DNA from: Aggregicoccus sp. 17bor-14
Lineage (GTDB): Bacteria; Myxococcota; Myxococcia; Myxococcales; Myxococcaceae
Assembly (NCBI RefSeq): GCF_009659535.1
Contig: NZ_VJZZ01000001.1
Span: forward strand, 511,424 to 575,423
Direction of reading: 5' to 3'
Length of the DNA: 64,000 nt
The notes under the pieces were generated by a model. It saw only the letters and a list, made by a program, of their open reading frames with translations. It was not told where the DNA came from and made no database searches. Below, piece after piece: positions 17,252 through 24,976 of this stretch. Within the stretch, counting starts at the first letter, position 1, and the number at the start of each line of letters is the position of its first letter. Made by a program: the position numbers and the translations under genes.

Positions 17252-19936
17252 CTAGCGGACCTCGAGCTTGCCGATGGCGAAGTCGGCGTTCTGCAGCAGC
17301 TCGTCACCCGCGCGGTTGCGCACCGCGGCGCGGAACTTCGTGCCGAGGTTGTTGCCGTCGAACACCGTGCCCACCGTCGCCGTGGCCGGGAGCTTCAGGC
17401 GCACGGAGTAGAACACCTTGCCGGTGGTCAGGTTGGAGTCCGCAGCCACCGCACCGGCGCCCGCGAACTTCTGGCTCGCGCCCGTGTAGAGGACGTTCGC
17501 CCCCGGGCCCGTGGTGGGCAGCGCCGCGCCGATGGCCTTGGGCGCCGCGCCCAGGGACAGCGCCGCGCTCGCCGCCGCAGGCTCCACGAACAGCGTGGAG
17601 TCCGCGACCGCGCGGGTGGTGTCCACCGGCAGGTTCATACCGGCCGAGTAGATGCCGCCGCGCGCCGTGGTGCTGCCCTGGCGGGCGTAGGAGACGTTCG
17701 ACACGAGGTCCAGCTGGACGACGCTGGCGCTCGAGGCGGCCGTGTTGAGGACCAAGCGCACCTTGCCGGCGCCCGCGGTCGGATCCGTGTAGACCAGGCC
17801 GTGGACGGCGGTGGTCGCCTGACCGGAGATGGTGCTGTCACCGGACTGCACCGCAGTGAGGGTCTGGCTGCCCAGCGTCTTGAACGTGACGCTGACCGAG
17901 CCGACGCCGCCCTCGGAGCCCGTGAACACGAGGTCCGCGGGCAGCGTGGCGCTCGCGTCCGTGGAGGTGAACTGCAGCGTCCCGGCGTAGTCCGCGACCG
18001 GGTTGCCGAAGCTGTCCTGCACGCGCACGGTCGCCGTGGCCGGGATGCCCGCGTTGACGCCCGCGGGCAGACCGAGCACGAGGCGGCTCTGGGCGGCGCT
18101 CACCGCGACGGTGGCGGTGCACGACCAGCCCGCGGCCGAGTCGCCCGCGGTGAGGGTCTGGCTGCCGGCCGTCACCAGGGTGGCGGTGAACACGCGGCTG
18201 CCCTGGTCACGCGACGGCACGAACGTCACCGCCGCCCCCAGGGTGGCCTTCGCGTCCGAGGAGCTGAGCGCCACGGTGCCGGCGTAGCCGGTCGCCGTGT
18301 TGCCCTGGGCGTCCTTGACCGTCACGCGCACCGGCAGGCTCGCGCCGGCAGTGCTGGTGGACGGGGTCTCGGAGATCTCGCAGGCGACGGCCGCACCGGC
18401 CCCCACGGCCACCGAGGCCGAGGCGGACAGGCTGTGCGCCGCGTCAGCGAAGGAGACCTGCTGGGTGCCGGTGGTCTTGAAGGTCACCGAGAACGCGTGG
18501 GTGCCCGCGTCGTCAGACGTGAAGGCGTAGTCGGCCGGGAGCACGGCCGCGCTGTCCGTGGAGCTCACGTGCACCGTGCCGCGGTAGCCCGTGGCGGTGT
18601 TGCCGTAGGCGTCCTTCACCGTCGCGGTGAAGGAGGCCGCCGCACCCGCCTCGGAGGAGGCCGGACCGGAGACGACGAGGGCCGCCGCATCCGCCGCGCT
18701 GACAGCCACGGTGGAGGAGGTCGCAGAGAGGCTGCCGCCCACCTCGGTCACGGTGAAGGAGTGGTCACCCGCGGTGCGGAAGCTCACCGAGGCGTGCGCC
18801 ACGCCGTCCACGAAGGTGACCGTGCCGGGCAGCTGGTCCGTCGCGTCCGAGGACGAGAAGGACGCGCTGCCGTTGTAACCGGCCGCCGCATTGCCCTTAC
18901 GGTCGCGCGCGGTGACGGTCACCGCGAGCGGCTCGCCGGCCCGCGCGGAGGCGGGCAGCGGCGCGAGGGTGTAGCTGAGGGCCGAGCCCGGCTTCACGCG
19001 CACCTCGGCAGTGGCCTTGAGCGCGGAGTTGGCCGAGTCCGTGACGGTCACGGTCTGCACGCCGGCCGTGGCGAAGGCCACGGTGATCTGCGCGCGGCCG
19101 TCGCTGCCCACCTGGACGTCCTGCACGGGGACCGCGCTGCCGTCGCTCAGCCGCACCTGGAGGGTGCCGCGCTGCTCGGTGGCGAGGTTGTTGTACGCGT
19201 CCGTGAAGGACACCTGGAAGGTGACGTCCGTGTCCGCGTCCGCCTCCACCGGGACGCTGGAGAGCAGCAGGGTCTTGGCGGCGGCCGCCTTGACCGGGAG
19301 CCCGGCGCTCTGGGTGCTGAAGGAGCCGGTCATCCCACCGCCCACGGTGCCGTTGGCGACGAGCAGCTGCGCGCCCGCCGTCTTGAACACCACGGGAACG
19401 GTCTTCACGCCCTTGTCCGCGGCGGTGAAGGTGAAGTCCCCGGGCAGCTCCGCCTGGGGATCGTTGCTCACCAGGTGCACCGTGCCCGTGTACGAGGGAA
19501 CGGTGGCGCCCGAGGGGTCCACGGCCGTGACCGTGACGTTGGTCGCAGCGCCCGCGACGATGGCCCCCGCCACGGCCAGCTTGAAGCCGGCCGCAGGGGT
19601 GGGGCCCACCGTGACGGTGAGCTTGGACTCGGCACGGTCGCTGCCGTGGCTGGCGGTGAGGGTGTAGACGGTGGTCTCGGTGGGGGAGACGTCCACCGAG
19701 GACTTGCCGGTCACGTCACCCACGCCGTTGTCGATGCTCAGACGGTTGGCGTTGTTGGCGGTGAAGACCAGCTTGGTGTGGCTGCCCTTCGCGATGGTCT
19801 CGGGCGCCGCGGTGAAGACGGCCACCGCGGGCTTTTCGCCACCGCCGCAGGCCGCGAGGCCCACGCACAGCAGGACGAGGAGGTTTCTAGTCATGGGCCG
19901 GGAGTAGGTTCGAGTGGAAGTGATGGCCTGGTTCAC
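17252..19936 (-). CDS. Large surface lipoprotein with six Ig-like repeats
   Basis: 894 residues. A lipobox (CVGLAACGGG) marks it as a lipoprotein. After a first Ig-like domain come six repeats of about 75-110 residues, each with a DxxGNxxTGYxGTVxxSSxD opening and an FKTxGxQ-type strand, as in Big_1/filamin-like adhesins. The C-terminal 150 residues are a different beta domain. The GTG at 19936 overlaps the upstream stop codon (GTGA) and has GGGAG before it, so I use it; an ATG at 19894 would give the shorter signal peptide MTRNLLVLLCVGLAAC. It is coupled to the sortilin-like gene. Likely role is adhesion or cell-surface structure. Confidence 0.85.
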   Translation of the reverse strand: MNQAITSTRTYSRPMTRNLLVLLCVGLAACGGGEKPAVAVFTAAPETIAKGSHTKLVFTANNANRLSIDNGVGDVTGKSSVDVSPTETTVYTLTASHGSDRAESKLTVTVGPTPAAGFKLAVAGAIVAGAATNVTVTAVDPSGATVPSYTGTVHLVSNDPQAELPGDFTFTAADKGVKTVPVVFKTAGAQLLVANGTVGGGMTGSFSTQSAGLPVKAAAAKTLLLSSVPVEADADTDVTFQVSFTDAYNNLATEQRGTLQVRLSDGSAVPVQDVQVGSDGRAQITVAFATAGVQTVTVTDSANSALKATAEVRVKPGSALSYTLAPLPASARAGEPLAVTVTARDRKGNAAAGYNGSASFSSSDATDQLPGTVTFVDGVAHASVSFRTAGDHSFTVTEVGGSLSATSSTVAVSAADAAALVVSGPASSEAGAAASFTATVKDAYGNTATGYRGTVHVSSTDSAAVLPADYAFTSDDAGTHAFSVTFKTTGTQQVSFADAAHSLSASASVAVGAGAAVACEISETPSTSTAGASLPVRVTVKDAQGNTATGYAGTVALSSSDAKATLGAAVTFVPSRDQGSRVFTATLVTAGSQTLTAGDSAAGWSCTATVAVSAAQSRLVLGLPAGVNAGIPATATVRVQDSFGNPVADYAGTLQFTSTDASATLPADLVFTGSEGGVGSVSVTFKTLGSQTLTAVQSGDSTISGQATTAVHGLVYTDPTAGAGKVRLVLNTAASSASVVQLDLVSNVSYARQGSTTARGGIYSAGMNLPVDTTRAVADSTLFVEPAAASAALSLGAAPKAIGAALPTTGPGANVLYTGASQKFAGAGAVAADSNLTTGKVFYSVRLKLPATATVGTVFDGNNLGTKFRAAVRNRAGDELLQNADFAIGKLEVR

Positions 19937-22900
19937 GGAGTGCTCCCGAACTTGGCAACGAGGGCGCTGAGGTCAGCCTCCTCGATGGTGGTGGGGCTGC
20001 CGGTCAGGTCGAGGGTGTTGGAGTAGAAGAGCGAGTTGCTGAAGGCGAGGCCCGCGCTCGGCCCCGTCGCCGGGGTGGTGCCCAGGCGGGTGGCCATGGC
20101 CTGCAGGTCGAAGTAGTCGATGACCCCGTTGCCGTCCCAGTCACCGGTGCTCGGCGCGCTGGCCGGCTCGCTCTCCGGGTGGATCTCCCAGATGCCGCGG
20201 CCGTAGGTGGCCACGCGCACGAGGCCGCCGTTGGAGGAGATGACCACGTCGTAGGTGCGCACCATGGGCAGGCCCTGGCCGTAGCGGGCCCAGGTCTTGC
20301 CACCGTCGACGGTGCGGTAGAGGCCGATCTCGGTGGCCACGTAGATGGTCGAGTCGGTGAGGTCGCTCGGGTCGTACTTCACGCTCCAGATGGGCACGTT
20401 CGGCAGGTCGAAGCCGGTGCCGTTACCGTGGAAGGGCACCCAGGTCTGACCGGCGTCGGTCGTCTTGTAGAGGTGACCCACGGAGTCGGGGACGACGGTG
20501 TTCGCGAGCGTCACGGCGCCAGCGGAGGCCACCAGCCAGGTCTGCTTCACGTCCGTGCCACCCAGGCTGGCCGGGTTGCGGGGGACGGTGACCGCCTGGA
20601 TGAAGCCGATCTGATCCGTGCCGACCGTGACGGCGGTCGCGGCGTTGATCACGTTCACCGCGTTGCCCTTGTCGATGATGATCGCCGAGCCACCGCTGGA
20701 GAGCGGCACGCCGTAGATGCGGGCGGGCACGCCGTCCACCGTGTAGGAGTACGGCGAGACGATCGGGCCGTTGCCGCGGGTGCCGCGCACCGAGCCGGCG
20801 ACCGTGAAGCCCGCGGGCGTCATGCGGGTGAACACGGGGGTCTCGTTCAGCGGATCCACGCGGATGCGGTAGACGTTCAGGCTGCTGTTGGCGACCACCG
20901 AGCCGTTGTCGTCGTTGAGCGCGCCGTAGCGCACGAGGAACGGGATGCCATCACCGGCCGGGAAGCTGGTGGTGAACGCGCGCCAGTTGCTCTTCTCCAC
21001 GCCGTTCTCGAGGCGGGTGGGACGGCTGCAGTCGCGCAGGCGCGGGACACAGAAGCGCCAGCTGCTCTGCACCGAGGCCCAGTACACGGGGTTCTGGCCG
21101 CGCGAGTCGTTGGCCACCGCGTTGCCGATGCCGTCACCGCCGATGATCTGGTCCCAGTTCTGCAGGTCGAAGTCGAAGACGAAGCTCTCGTCGTCGACCA
21201 GGCGGAAGCGGGTGCCGTTGTCCTGCAGGCCGGTGAAGACCACGCTGCCCGTGCCGTAGACCGGGTCACCCGAGCCCACCGCGTAGGGCAGCTGGGTCAC
21301 GAGGCCCACGTCCGGGAACTGCCAGGCCACGGTGGCCGGGCTGGTCACGTCGAACAGGTTGTAGGAGGCGAAGAGGCCGCCGTCCGTGCCGGCGAACGCC
21401 ACCGCGCCCGCGCTGGTGCGGATGATGGTGGCCGTGTGCCAGTCAGCGTGCACGTAGGGCAGGAAGCCGTCCGCCGTGAGGCCGCCGCCGCCCTGGGGCA
21501 GCCAGTGCGCCACGTTCTCCCAGGTCGCGCCGCCGTTGCGGGTGCGCGCACCGCAGAGGTTGCCGCCGATGAGCACGTTGTTGGAGTTACCCGGGTCCAC
21601 CGCGATGGCCAGGTTGTAGTAGCTCTGGTTGTGGCCGATATCGAGGGTCTTGCAGTCGGCGCCGCTGGTCGGGTTGGCCATCGCCGTGGCCTTGGTGCCC
21701 ACCACCGTCCAGCTCGCACCGCCGTCGGTGCTCTTGAGGATGGCCGCGGTGGCGTTGCCCGCCGAGCCACTGTCGATGATGGTGCTGGCCTGGGCGTACA
21801 CGACCGCGTTGCCCGGGTTCGGGGCCGCGTTGCCGGCAATCTGCATGCGGCCGACCTCGCCCGCGCCGCCCGCGGTGAGCGCCGCGGTCAGCGCGCCGGA
21901 GGCGCGCACGGAGACCCAGGTCGCGCCCGAGTCGGTGCTCTTCCAGAAGTCACCGTAGTTGCCCACGGCCGGGTTCGAAGCGCAGGCGGCCACGCCGAGC
22001 GACGAGTTCTGGGTGCCGCTGGCCGGCGTGGGGGGCAGGCCGCCGGGGCAGGCGTACACGCCGCTCACGAGCCACTGGGACTGGCCGCCCGTGGTGCCCA
22101 GGTACGTGAGCGCCCAGGTGGCCTCGCGCACCGGGCCAGTGGCCGCGGTGTTCGGCAGGTCGATGAGGCCGAAGGTCGCACCGCCGTCCGTGGAGCGGTA
22201 GAAGCCGTCGTCCGTGGCGACCAGGATGTTGCTGGAGTTGGTCGGGTCCACCTTGATGTCGCGCACGTTGTTCGTGGCGGTGGGCTTGCCATCCACCGGG
22301 TGCGTGGCCGCGAGGACGATCGGAGCGCCCCAGGTGGCGCCCTCGTCGGTGGACTTCACGATGCCGCCGCCCTGACGGTCGAACGCGTCACCGAGGCCGA
22401 TGAACACCGTCGCCGGGTTGTTCGGGTCGATGTCCAGCGCGCCGATGGCGAGCGAGCCGAGGTTGTCGGTGAGGGGCAGCCAGGTGGGGTACTGGCCGAA
22501 GTCGGTGGCCTTCCAGAGACCGCCGCCGGAGGTGGCGAGGTACACGGTCTTGGGATCGCCCGGCTTCACGCGGATCTGCGTGGGACGGCCCGAGTCGATC
22601 GACTTGTAGTAGGTGCCGTTGTACGAGGAGCGGGCGGTGCCAGGCCCGAGGCTGAGCCAGGGACGGGTGCCGGCGGCGGCCGGGCCGACGGCGTTCGCGT
22701 CACCGAGCGCGCGCACGAAGTTGTCCTGCGAGGCGGGCTTGTTCCAGCGCTCGTTCTCGCGGGCCACGATGCTCAGCAGCTGGTTGTTGAACTCGGCGGG
22801 GCGCGGGCCGACTTCGGCCTGCAGCGCGAGCCGGCGCAGGTCGGCGAAGTCCTGCTCGACCTTCTCGTTCTCCGCCTCGGAGGCGCCCTCTTCCTCCATC

Positions 22901-23091
22901 TCGGGGACGAGCTCCTCCTGCCAGGGGATGAAGTCCGCGCCCTGCGCGAGCGCCTGCTCGGCGCGCTTCACGGCGGCGTCGTGCTTCGCCTCTTTCCAGT
23001 TCTTGTACGCGCCGACCACGGCCGGGGCGCATGCCGCGAGCCCCACCGAAGTCGTCAGTCCAAACAGCTTCCACTTGGTTCTACTAAGCAT
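19933..23091 (-). CDS. Sortilin/BNR-type beta-propeller lipoprotein with dockerin-like C-terminus
   Basis: 1,052 residues. The signal sequence ends in a lipobox (SVGLAAC, Cys21), so it is probably a lipoprotein. A helical, acidic stretch follows to about residue 120. Then a large beta-propeller carries at least seven Asp-boxes of the type STDxGxTW (KSTDEGATW, RSTDGGATF, KSTDSGATW, KSTDGGASW, KTTDAGQTW, RTVDGGKTW and a degenerate RNGGATW), as in sortilin/VPS10 and BNR proteins. The end has DWDGNGVIDYFDLQ, a dockerin- or EF-hand-like calcium loop, with a second half-repeat after it. The ATG at 23091 gives the best signal peptide. Role and ligand are unknown; it precedes the Ig-repeat lipoprotein with a 4-bp overlap. 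Confidence 0.85.
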   Translation of the reverse strand: MLSRTKWKLFGLTTSVGLAACAPAVVGAYKNWKEAKHDAAVKRAEQALAQGADFIPWQEELVPEMEEEGASEAENEKVEQDFADLRRLALQAEVGPRPAEFNNQLLSIVARENERWNKPASQDNFVRALGDANAVGPAAAGTRPWLSLGPGTARSSYNGTYYKSIDSGRPTQIRVKPGDPKTVYLATSGGGLWKATDFGQYPTWLPLTDNLGSLAIGALDIDPNNPATVFIGLGDAFDRQGGGIVKSTDEGATWGAPIVLAATHPVDGKPTATNNVRDIKVDPTNSSNILVATDDGFYRSTDGGATFGLIDLPNTAATGPVREATWALTYLGTTGGQSQWLVSGVYACPGGLPPTPASGTQNSSLGVAACASNPAVGNYGDFWKSTDSGATWVSVRASGALTAALTAGGAGEVGRMQIAGNAAPNPGNAVVYAQASTIIDSGSAGNATAAILKSTDGGASWTVVGTKATAMANPTSGADCKTLDIGHNQSYYNLAIAVDPGNSNNVLIGGNLCGARTRNGGATWENVAHWLPQGGGGLTADGFLPYVHADWHTATIIRTSAGAVAFAGTDGGLFASYNLFDVTSPATVAWQFPDVGLVTQLPYAVGSGDPVYGTGSVVFTGLQDNGTRFRLVDDESFVFDFDLQNWDQIIGGDGIGNAVANDSRGQNPVYWASVQSSWRFCVPRLRDCSRPTRLENGVEKSNWRAFTTSFPAGDGIPFLVRYGALNDDNGSVVANSSLNVYRIRVDPLNETPVFTRMTPAGFTVAGSVRGTRGNGPIVSPYSYTVDGVPARIYGVPLSSGGSAIIIDKGNAVNVINAATAVTVGTDQIGFIQAVTVPRNPASLGGTDVKQTWLVASAGAVTLANTVVPDSVGHLYKTTDAGQTWVPFHGNGTGFDLPNVPIWSVKYDPSDLTDSTIYVATEIGLYRTVDGGKTWARYGQGLPMVRTYDVVISSNGGLVRVATYGRGIWEIHPESEPASAPSTGDWDGNGVIDYFDLQAMATRLGTTPATGPSAGLAFSNSLFYSNTLDLTGSPTTIEEADLSALVAKFGSTP

Positions 23092-23641
23092 AGGCACCCG
23101 AGGGGGTTTCGAGCCGCACCACAACTGAACTTCCGCTTCCGTTTCGACTGCAGGGTCCGCCCGTACTCTGGGCGGGAGGGGGTAGGCCGCAGCGGCCCGG
23201 CGCGCGCTCCGAGGAGGGCGTGCCGGCCAGCGGCTGAGCAGAGGTCAACAGGGACGCGCGCGGGAGAGGCGGCGCGCAGTCGTGCAGGACGGGCTCGAAG
23301 CCGGGCGCAGCGCGCGCGGAGCGGAGATCCGCTCCGGGAGGAGTTCAGAGACCTGCACGCGAAATGCGGCGCCTGAATCCACTGCGTCTGCAAAACAAAG
23401 GGCCATTCCTGCGGCTCCCGGACTGTCGAGGGGAGGAAATTGTGCACGAGTGGAAATCCCGCTGGGAAGGGCCCCCCCCAAAAAAACTGCGGCAAAACGC
23501 CGCATCACTCGGAGAGCAGGCAGCGCGCCGCAGCGCGCCATGACGGGTGGGGGGGGTACTTGCAATCCGGTTGCGTTCTGGGGGTGGTAGCGGACAGCAG
23601 CGCGAAGAGGGGGCTGACGCCACGGGGCCTGCGGGTCCAGG
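23092..23641. other. Large divergent intergenic region
   Basis: At 550 bp this is the longest gene-free stretch in the window. It separates the sortilin-like gene (minus) from a Cys-rich lipoprotein gene (plus). The part from about 23380 to 23500 is less GC-rich than its surroundings, with an A-run and several T-runs when read on the minus strand. It holds an intrinsic terminator-like element for the minus strand (23480-23504) that terminates no visible gene. I see no protein-coding frame with normal codon use here. Confidence 0.7.
23480..23504 (-). terminator. Orphan intrinsic terminator (stem-loop plus seven T)
   Basis: On the minus strand TGCGGC (from 23504) pairs perfectly with GCCGCA, loop GTTTT, followed by G and seven T (ending at 23480). 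It is the only clear T-tailed terminator in the window. No annotated gene ends upstream of it on that strand; the sortilin-like gene starts about 390 bases downstream. It may end a small RNA or act as a leader attenuator. Confidence 0.5.
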
Positions 23642-24127
23642 ATGGAGTGCATGGCTCCCCTCCTCCGCTCCGTGCTCCTCCCTGCCCTGCTGCTCTGCGC
23701 CTGCGCGCGCTCCTCCGAGCCCTCGCCCCGCGCGAGCGCGCCCGCCTCACACGAGGCCTCGACGCAGCCCGCGGCCGCGCCTCGCGAGGCGCCCCGCCCC
23801 GAAGCCTCCCCTGCCGCGGCCGCGCCGGCAGAGCCCGCGAGCGCAGTGCCTCCCGCTGTGGCCGCACCGGAGGCGGGAGCGGGAGGACGCTGCACGAGCG
23901 ACGCCGACTGCGCGCTCACCCGCATCGACGAGAGCGGCTGCTGCGAGACGCTGTGCACGCCGAGGCCCGTGCTGCGCAGCGAGCTCGCGCAGCTCGAGGA
24001 GCGCAAGCGCCAGTGCGGGGCGAGCGCCCAGCGCTGCCCGGATCCGGTGTGCGCGCCCCCGCGCTTCCGCACCGGCGTCGCGTGCCAGGCGGGCCGCTGC
24101 GCGGCGACGCAGCAGTCGGACGACTAG
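23642..24127 (+). CDS. Cysteine-rich lipoprotein of unknown function
   Basis: 161 residues. A hydrophobic signal (about residues 5-18) ends in a possible lipobox, LLLCAC. An Ala/Pro-rich linker of about 60 residues follows. The C-terminal 75 residues form a small cysteine-rich domain, opening RCTSDADCALTRIDESGCCETLC and containing nine or ten cysteines, likely disulfide-bonded outside the cytoplasm. The starts at 23642 and 23651 (second ATG) are both possible. No family assignment. It stands alone, followed by a strong hairpin. Confidence 0.78.
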   Translation: MECMAPLLRSVLLPALLLCACARSSEPSPRASAPASHEASTQPAAAPREAPRPEASPAAAAPAEPASAVPPAVAAPEAGAGGRCTSDADCALTRIDESGCCETLCTPRPVLRSELAQLEERKRQCGASAQRCPDPVCAPPRFRTGVACQAGRCAATQQSDD

Positions 24128-24152
24128 CGCAGCTCCGGGCCCCGCAAGCGGC

Positions 24153-24190
24153 GAGGCCTGCCGTCCCTCGCGCGGAGGGAGGCAGGCCTC
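24153..24190. terminator. Strong bidirectional hairpin
   Basis: GAGGCCTGCC (24153-24162) pairs with GGCAGGCCTC (24181-24190), and an inner TCCCT/AGGGA pair (24164-24168 with 24176-24180) extends the stem. It sits between convergent stop codons at 24127 and 24218. Confidence 0.7.
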
Positions 24191-24217
24191 GAGGTGCCGC
24201 GGGAGGGAGCGTGGCGG

Positions 24218-24976
24218 CTAGAAGTTGAGGCCCACGCGCATCAGCGCGATGGCGCCCTGCTCATCACTCGCCTTGGGCATGTGCCAGCCGGCGAGCACCG
24301 AGGCCTCCAGGATGCGCCACTGGTAGCCCACGGTGCCGCCGCTCACGAGCTCGAACTCGCGGCCGACGCGGCCCCCCGGCGGCTTGCCGCCCATCTCCGC
24401 CTCCTGCTTGAAGCGGGAGTTGAGGCCCACCATCAGGTGCTCGGTGAGCAGGTAGCCCAGGCCCACGTGGCCCTCGAAGTCCGCGTCCTGTCGCTCCATC
24501 TCGTGGCCGGCGACGAAGTTCGCGGTGCCCAGGAGCTGGCCCCAGCGGCGCCCCGCCGAGACGAAGAGCTCGACCTCGCCGCCGTCCGAGCTGAAGCCGA
24601 GCTGCTTGTAGCGCGCACCGGCCGAGAGGTTCACGCCGTGCTTGCCCTGGCGCAGGAACTGGTACTTCGCCTGCACCTCGGGGGTGAAGCCCTCGCCGCC
24701 GCTGCGCAGCTCGCCGCCGGCGCGCAGCGCGAGCCCCGGCAGTGCCACCATCTCCACCGTCTGGGTGACGCCGTAGCCGCTGCTGCCGTCCGCACCGGCC
24801 CGGGTCGCGGTCCCGTTCGTCTCGGCGCGCACCTGCGTGGGCGGCACCGAGGCACTCTCGGAGAGCGGGAAGAAGCGGTCCACCGTGTCGTCCGCCCCGA
24901 CCACCTGCGCGTGGGCGACGGGAGCAGCGAGCGAGACCAGAGCAGTGGTGCGGAGGATGAGCGAGCGGAGAGCCAT
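24218..24976 (-). CDS. Putative outer-membrane beta-barrel protein
   Basis: 252 residues with a signal peptide (MALRSLILRTTALVSLAAPVAHA, cut before QVVG). The mature part is made of alternating amphipathic strands (YQFLRQGKHGVNLSAGARY, GEVELFVSAGRRWGQLLGTANFVAG, FEGHVGLGYLLTEHLMVGLNSRF) and ends in a strand with terminal Phe (ALMRVGLNF), as in BamA-assembled barrels. Function is unknown. The start at 24976 is the only one giving a signal peptide. It stands alone. Confidence 0.8.
   Translation of the reverse strand: MALRSLILRTTALVSLAAPVAHAQVVGADDTVDRFFPLSESASVPPTQVRAETNGTATRAGADGSSGYGVTQTVEMVALPGLALRAGGELRSGGEGFTPEVQAKYQFLRQGKHGVNLSAGARYKQLGFSSDGGEVELFVSAGRRWGQLLGTANFVAGHEMERQDADFEGHVGLGYLLTEHLMVGLNSRFKQEAEMGGKPPGGRVGREFELVSGGTVGYQWRILEASVLAGWHMPKASDEQGAIALMRVGLNF

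Follow-up and report, generated by a model that had tools for sequence, protein, structure and literature searches.

What does a stem-loop shaped like an intrinsic terminator do where no gene precedes it on its own strand? The question is raised by a hairpin of Aggregicoccus sp. 17bor-14 that sits between two divergent genes, one on the minus strand for a protein of the sortilin/BNR type and one on the plus strand for a cysteine-rich, lipoprotein-like protein. The locus belongs to a 64,000-nt stretch of DNA that was analyzed as a whole and is referred to here as the window. Its features, in window coordinates, are as follows.

19933..23091, minus strand: sortilin/BNR-repeat gene that lies downstream of the hairpin and starts with ATG at 23091 or TTG at 23124
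23472..23479, minus strand: run of eight G (G8) adjoining the T tract; the plus strand reads C8 A7
23480..23486, minus strand: tract of seven T (T7), one G past the stem
23487, minus strand: the single G between stem and T tract
23488..23504, minus strand: terminator-like hairpin, TGCGGC-GTTTT-GCCGCA, 6-bp stem and 5-nt loop
23493-23488, minus strand: 3' arm, GCCGCA
23498-23494, minus strand: loop, GTTTT
23504-23499, minus strand: 5' arm, TGCGGC
23520-23539, minus strand: tandem GCAGCGCGCC (two copies), which folds into another stem-loop shortly before the hairpin
23549..23556, plus strand: second G8 run of the same intergenic region
23642..24127, plus strand: divergent cysteine-rich gene; start ATG at 23642 or 23651
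24128..24217, both strands: spacer between convergent genes; very strong hairpin on either strand (-63.1 and -60.8 kcal/mol), no T tract

The elements of the hairpin were read from the sequence, and a terminator scan returned the same stem. Two features of intrinsic terminators are present, namely a GC-rich stem with a short loop and a T tract right behind the stem. In isolation, the stem folds at -9.9 kcal/mol, and it still forms in the minimum-energy folds, including that of the 81-nt context; the context fold is of unremarkable stability (z -1.5; matched by 14 of 200 shuffles). The region of the compound T7/G8 tract, TTTTTTTGGGGGG, occurs once in the genome. The preliminary description of this DNA had placed an intrinsic terminator, a stem with a clean T run, at 23480-23504, and it described both the terminator-like anatomy and the orphan position correctly. 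The hairpin is real and of an ordinary kind, and its function is putative.

The product of the sortilin-like gene matches the Pfam family BNR (PF02012) at 31.9 bits, above the cut-off of 27, and Sortilin-Vps10 at 29.4 bits, under the cut-off of 33. The cysteine-rich protein has no Pfam match, and homologues of its gene are found in 14 of the 97 other genomes of the comparison set. Both proteins presumably carry a lipoprotein-type signal, which we recognized by eye. The simple gene caller missed the lipoprotein-like gene at 23642-24127, and the scans label the hairpin 'after_gene_3end' or 'between_codirectional'; we read the arrangement as divergent. The nearest minus-strand gene before the hairpin ends at 24218, 714 nt away, with the plus-strand gene intervening, so that the hairpin indeed follows no gene on the minus strand, as had been noticed. 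Between the end of the T run and the ATG at 23091 there are 388 nt. This agrees, as a distance, with the '390-nt leader' proposed earlier for the sortilin-like gene; the status of this segment as a leader gained no support.

One account of such a structure is coincidence, a random GC palindrome beside a random intergenic A/T tract, with no function. Under strict criteria (at least 5 pairs, at least 4 of them GC, at most one G-U pair, a loop of 3-8 nt, a gap of 0-2 nt and a run of at least five T), the hairpin at 23504-23488 is the sole stem followed by T5 or more in the 64-kb window, which bears out the initial remark that no other stem of the window has a clean T run. A looser scan (five T among eight bases), conducted in four overlapping stretches of the window, yields 20 sites against 16.3 expected; none of the other 19 has an uninterrupted T5. 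The other T7 run of the window (58674-58668) has no hairpin before it. In a sample of 864 kb, consisting of the window and a further 800 kb of its genome, runs of A or T of length 6 or more number 10, all intergenic; two are of length 7, both inside the window, and the hairpin under study is the one case among the 10 in which a hairpin directly precedes the run. Among 60,000 sampled intergenic positions, a 6-bp Watson-Crick stem with at least 4 GC pairs ends 0-2 nt ahead of 1.46%, and a 5-bp stem ahead of 5.9%. By chance, therefore, about 0.15-0.6 sites are expected at the 10 runs, compared to one seen; for the two T6+ runs of the window, the chance of a hairpin is roughly 3-12%, and extrapolation to the full 6.9 Mb of the genome predicts about one 6-bp site. 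When 264 kb were dinucleotide-shuffled, in three replicates only, the outcome was 1, 0 and 1 sites with T5+ and 0, 1 and 0 with T6+, and the real sequence has one.

In 1.955 Mb, stems of at least 5 bp with T5 or more occur at 13 sites, compared with 8 mirror controls, in which the T run is placed before the stem; among the 13, the hairpin under study is followed by the longest T tract. Stems of at least 6 bp with T6 or more number 3 against 0 mirror controls, a small count under a threshold that was chosen after the results had been seen. A GCGGC/GCCGC stem with T5 occurs once in the whole genome, and its reversed control does not occur. Across 40 genomes, the pattern of a GGGC/GCCC stem with T6 gives 38 matches (three places are counted twice) against 28 controls, and at least 11 of the 38 resemble the hairpin of the rimP gene discussed below. 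T-tract hairpins are rare in the sampled DNA and only slightly above chance, and the particular hairpin exceeds chance weakly. Coincidence is disfavored by the T tract, unusually long for this genome and placed right behind a perfect stem, and by the stricter class of 3 versus 0, small as it is. The idea that T-tract hairpins as a class mark leaders was discarded because most mirror controls (5 of 8) lie in divergent regions as well. As a separate observation, the G8/C8 runs at 23472-23479 and 23549-23556, which are 69 bp apart in one intergenic region, with one of them abutting the A7 run, are two of the eight intergenic G8/C8 runs of the 864-kb sample; G8 runs in the window are not above chance (5 matches versus 8.16 expected).

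How genes generally end in this genome bears on what an isolated T-tract hairpin might be. Taking a 50-nt stretch that folds at -30 kcal/mol or lower as the criterion, 62 of the 142 convergent gene ends in the sample have such a strong stem, compared to 12 after shuffling, whereas among divergent leaders the count is 39 of 454 versus 37 after shuffling. In the first sample of 52 convergent ends, at least four T among the eight bases past the stem were found at 9 and, after shuffling, at 0, indicative of a modest T bias at gene ends. The hairpin of the convergent spacer 24128..24217 probably serves as end signal for two genes, the plus-strand one and the minus-strand one at 24218-24976. The intrinsic terminators of mycobacteria have been described as few in number and I-shaped (PMC12288462); in Streptomyces avermitilis, a report assigns a U-rich motif to about a quarter of the mapped ends, which are taken as stronger stops (PMC8780764); and a survey of 13 genomes describes U trails as anti-correlated with GC content (PMC8355165). 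The strong-stem gene ends found here resemble the accounts of mycobacteria and S. avermitilis. Among the titles listed in literature searches, none concerned Myxococcus terminators or transcript maps. As with the I-shaped terminators described for mycobacteria (PMC12288462), hairpins serve as the presumed stop signals of a GC-rich genome; the strong-stem end hairpins of this genome, however, follow stop codons, are much stronger than the hairpin under study and mostly lack a T tract, so that the latter is of the opposite type, with a weak stem and a strong T tract. With the L-shaped rho-independent terminators of the E. coli type it shares the GC stem, the short loop and the unbroken T tract right behind the stem but differs from them in that the stem is short, no gene precedes it on the same strand and it was not found in relatives; moreover, the L-shaped class barely exceeds its control in this genome. 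Given these strong-stem, T-poor gene ends, an isolated T-tract hairpin should not be taken by default for a gene-end signal and merits a check for a leader, as at rimP-nusA, or for chance. The hairpin by itself matters little; the finding that sampled convergent ends of this GC-rich genome are often strong stems with few Ts is a useful side result.

A leader function was one of the earlier proposals: the hairpin would end transcription prematurely within a long leader and so control the expression of the sortilin-like gene. The orientation, sense with respect to this gene and 388 nt upstream of it, would allow this, and the same genome has an attenuator-type leader hairpin, in that the three best T6 hairpins of the sample include one just before two genes that we take, from their sequences, to be rimP and nusA. 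Its position in the fetched locus (L111) is the following.

1510-1535 (G000:C9, about 259009-259034), plus strand: hairpin of the rimP-leader type with its T run, the two together spanning 1514-1535; rimP starts at 1562 and nusA at 2117

The motif AAAGTGGGC...GCCC..TTTTTT lies ahead of rimP-nusA in 10 of 11 fetched loci, from ten genomes of the order (L111-L118, L120, L121), a fraction that is not a conservation rate because the 11 loci were picked for likeness from the GGGC/GCCC and T6 matches (24 of 40 genomes matched). The eleventh locus (L119) is a different gene; at about 1486 of that locus (G000:C3:315064-315085, minus strand), a T6 GGGC/GCCC hairpin lies about 37 nt before the predicted start, with a 4-bp stem that falls under the cut-off of the 1.955-Mb scan. 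The rimP-leader has been called the most ubiquitous transcription attenuator in the paper that describes it (PMC2965389), and, judged by sequence, the hairpin of L111 matches the published rimP-leader. Rfam gave no match at the gathering score on the rimP-nusA loci, and a lax search of L111 gave none named rimP-leader. The presence of this leader hairpin suggests that T-tract hairpins are probably obeyed by the polymerase of this bacterium, and its detection across several families of the order indicates that a hairpin that matters can be found with the methods used.

The hairpin under study shares with the rimP-leader, as described (PMC2965389), the combination of hairpin and T tract ahead of a gene, with no same-strand gene preceding, but it lacks the features that the account gives as the leader's own, that is, the GGGC...GCCC signature, a distance of 4-130 nt before rimP and recurrence in the order; membership in this family was rejected, as both the sequence and the gene differ. 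It is also far from its gene, in contrast to the 26 nt between the T run and rimP in L111. Furthermore, none of 13 sortilin-like homologues has such a hairpin, the window has no Rfam match at the gathering score, including any leader family, and no promoter-like site above shuffles was found on the minus strand upstream of the hairpin. No conserved element that might act as a sensor was found, and in the minimum-energy folds the hairpin persists. Attenuation of the sortilin-like gene received no positive support and appears unlikely.

The comparison with related genomes was made with a set in which the genus is represented by this genome only. In a DNA search with 23092-24127 against 98 genomes, including its own, with four candidates scored per genome, no match over the hairpin was found in the 97 other genomes among the matches listed; matches were obtained in 45 of the 98, and those outside its own genome, all short and GC-rich, were set aside as reflecting composition. 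The exact 24-base hairpin sequence has no match in the GTDB r220 contigs, from which the own genome may be left out, and a search of these contigs with the sortilin-like protein found no relative. The upstream regions (up to 600 nt, either strand) of 13 distinct sortilin-like homologues and of 13 distinct homologues of the lipoprotein contain no stem with T4 or more. In this survey, overlapping loci were counted once, and starts were estimated from alignments (that of L045 about 165 nt too early). Sortilin alignments beginning past residue 150 (L009, L010, L014, L021, L023, L024 and L055) were dropped, as were loci with less than 150 nt upstream (L005 and L008, and L019, L025 and L039 for the lipoprotein). 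When the fetched loci were scanned in full for T5+ hairpins, two others came up besides the hairpin under study, both within genes.

Within the G026 homologue (L006, L014, L020): T5+ hairpin
Antisense to the G084 homologue (L045), inside its first codons: T5+ hairpin

The search for the hairpin in related genomes, which had been suggested at the outset, accordingly did not find it, neither in the listed matches of the 97 genomes nor in the GTDB contigs nor next to the 13 and 13 homologues, as coincidence would predict. Given that the homologues are only about 30-47% identical, the absence argues against an ancient function and leaves a recent one unaffected. The same results weigh on a further suggestion, that the hairpin terminates a short non-coding RNA starting at about 23510-23640. 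The terminator shape, the absence of a gene before it and the second stem-loop just upstream are compatible with such an RNA, but no DNA match over the hairpin was listed in relatives, no Rfam family was matched, the 81-nt fold is not unusual and no promoter rises above shuffles; a small RNA, for which no positive support emerged, is very unlikely. Two microRNA matches, returned by Rfam for 23080-24220 at a lax E-value, are far under the cut-offs and were dismissed as chance.

The promoter analysis consisted of sigma-70 and sigma-54 scans of 23092-24217, and their best scores did not leave the range given by 200 letter shuffles. The best promoter-like match on the minus strand, at 23468-23439, lies just downstream of the hairpin, with a score of 12 that the best site reached in 37 of the 200 shuffles. 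One interpretation is that the locus acts as DNA on the two divergent genes, with TGCGGC-N5-GCCGCA as the operator of a dimer or the A/T tract as an upstream promoter element. That the inverted repeat is perfect and stands in a divergent promoter region, with the promoter-like match directly downstream, is in keeping with this, but the promoter score is within the shuffles, and the genome has 4 sites with the palindrome compared to 8 with the reversed control, which gives no sign of an operator network; we consider a DNA element quite unlikely. A transcription-factor operator recurring in the genome was rejected on the same count.

The reading that we favor, with a probability of about 0.4, is that the hairpin is an intrinsic-terminator-like, lineage-specific element that would insulate the sortilin-like gene from stray minus-strand transcription. 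RNA polymerase would enter leftward, either by reading through past 24128-24217 or from stray or divergent starts close to the lipoprotein gene; at the stem and the U7 tract, about 390 nt short of the sortilin-like gene, it would be released, and that gene would depend on a promoter of its own nearer by. Divergent initiation from prokaryotic promoters has been reported (PMC10268837) and could supply minus-strand transcripts that reach the hairpin. Should the sortilin-like gene be transcribed from the match at 23468-23439, the hairpin would shield that promoter from transcription arriving from upstream. Insulation is suggested by the canonical shape (GC stem, short loop, T7), by the 3 versus 0 mirror controls in the stricter class, one of the three being the rimP-nusA leader hairpin, together with a T tract whose length is unmatched among the 13 sites, and by the promoter-like match right behind the hairpin, where insulation would want it, with its score within shuffles. 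Against insulation, T-tract hairpins are hardly enriched (13 versus 8, 38 versus 28 and 20 versus 16.3), the stem is short and weak with an unremarkable context fold, and the hairpin was not found in relatives; in addition, a strong hairpin already marks the end of the minus-strand gene 24218-24976, which leaves less need for a backstop. Coincidence is almost as likely as insulation. A lineage-specific switch, in which slippage in the T7-G8 tract, with the second G8 nearby, would vary the strength of the terminator and hence sortilin-like expression between cells, is highly improbable.

Whatever the role of the hairpin, the cysteine-rich lipoprotein and the sortilin-like protein may work together, judging from their genes. 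Homologues of the two genes are adjacent on the same strand in G035:C35 (L019, L039) and G084:C237 (L045), and the genes are divergent here.
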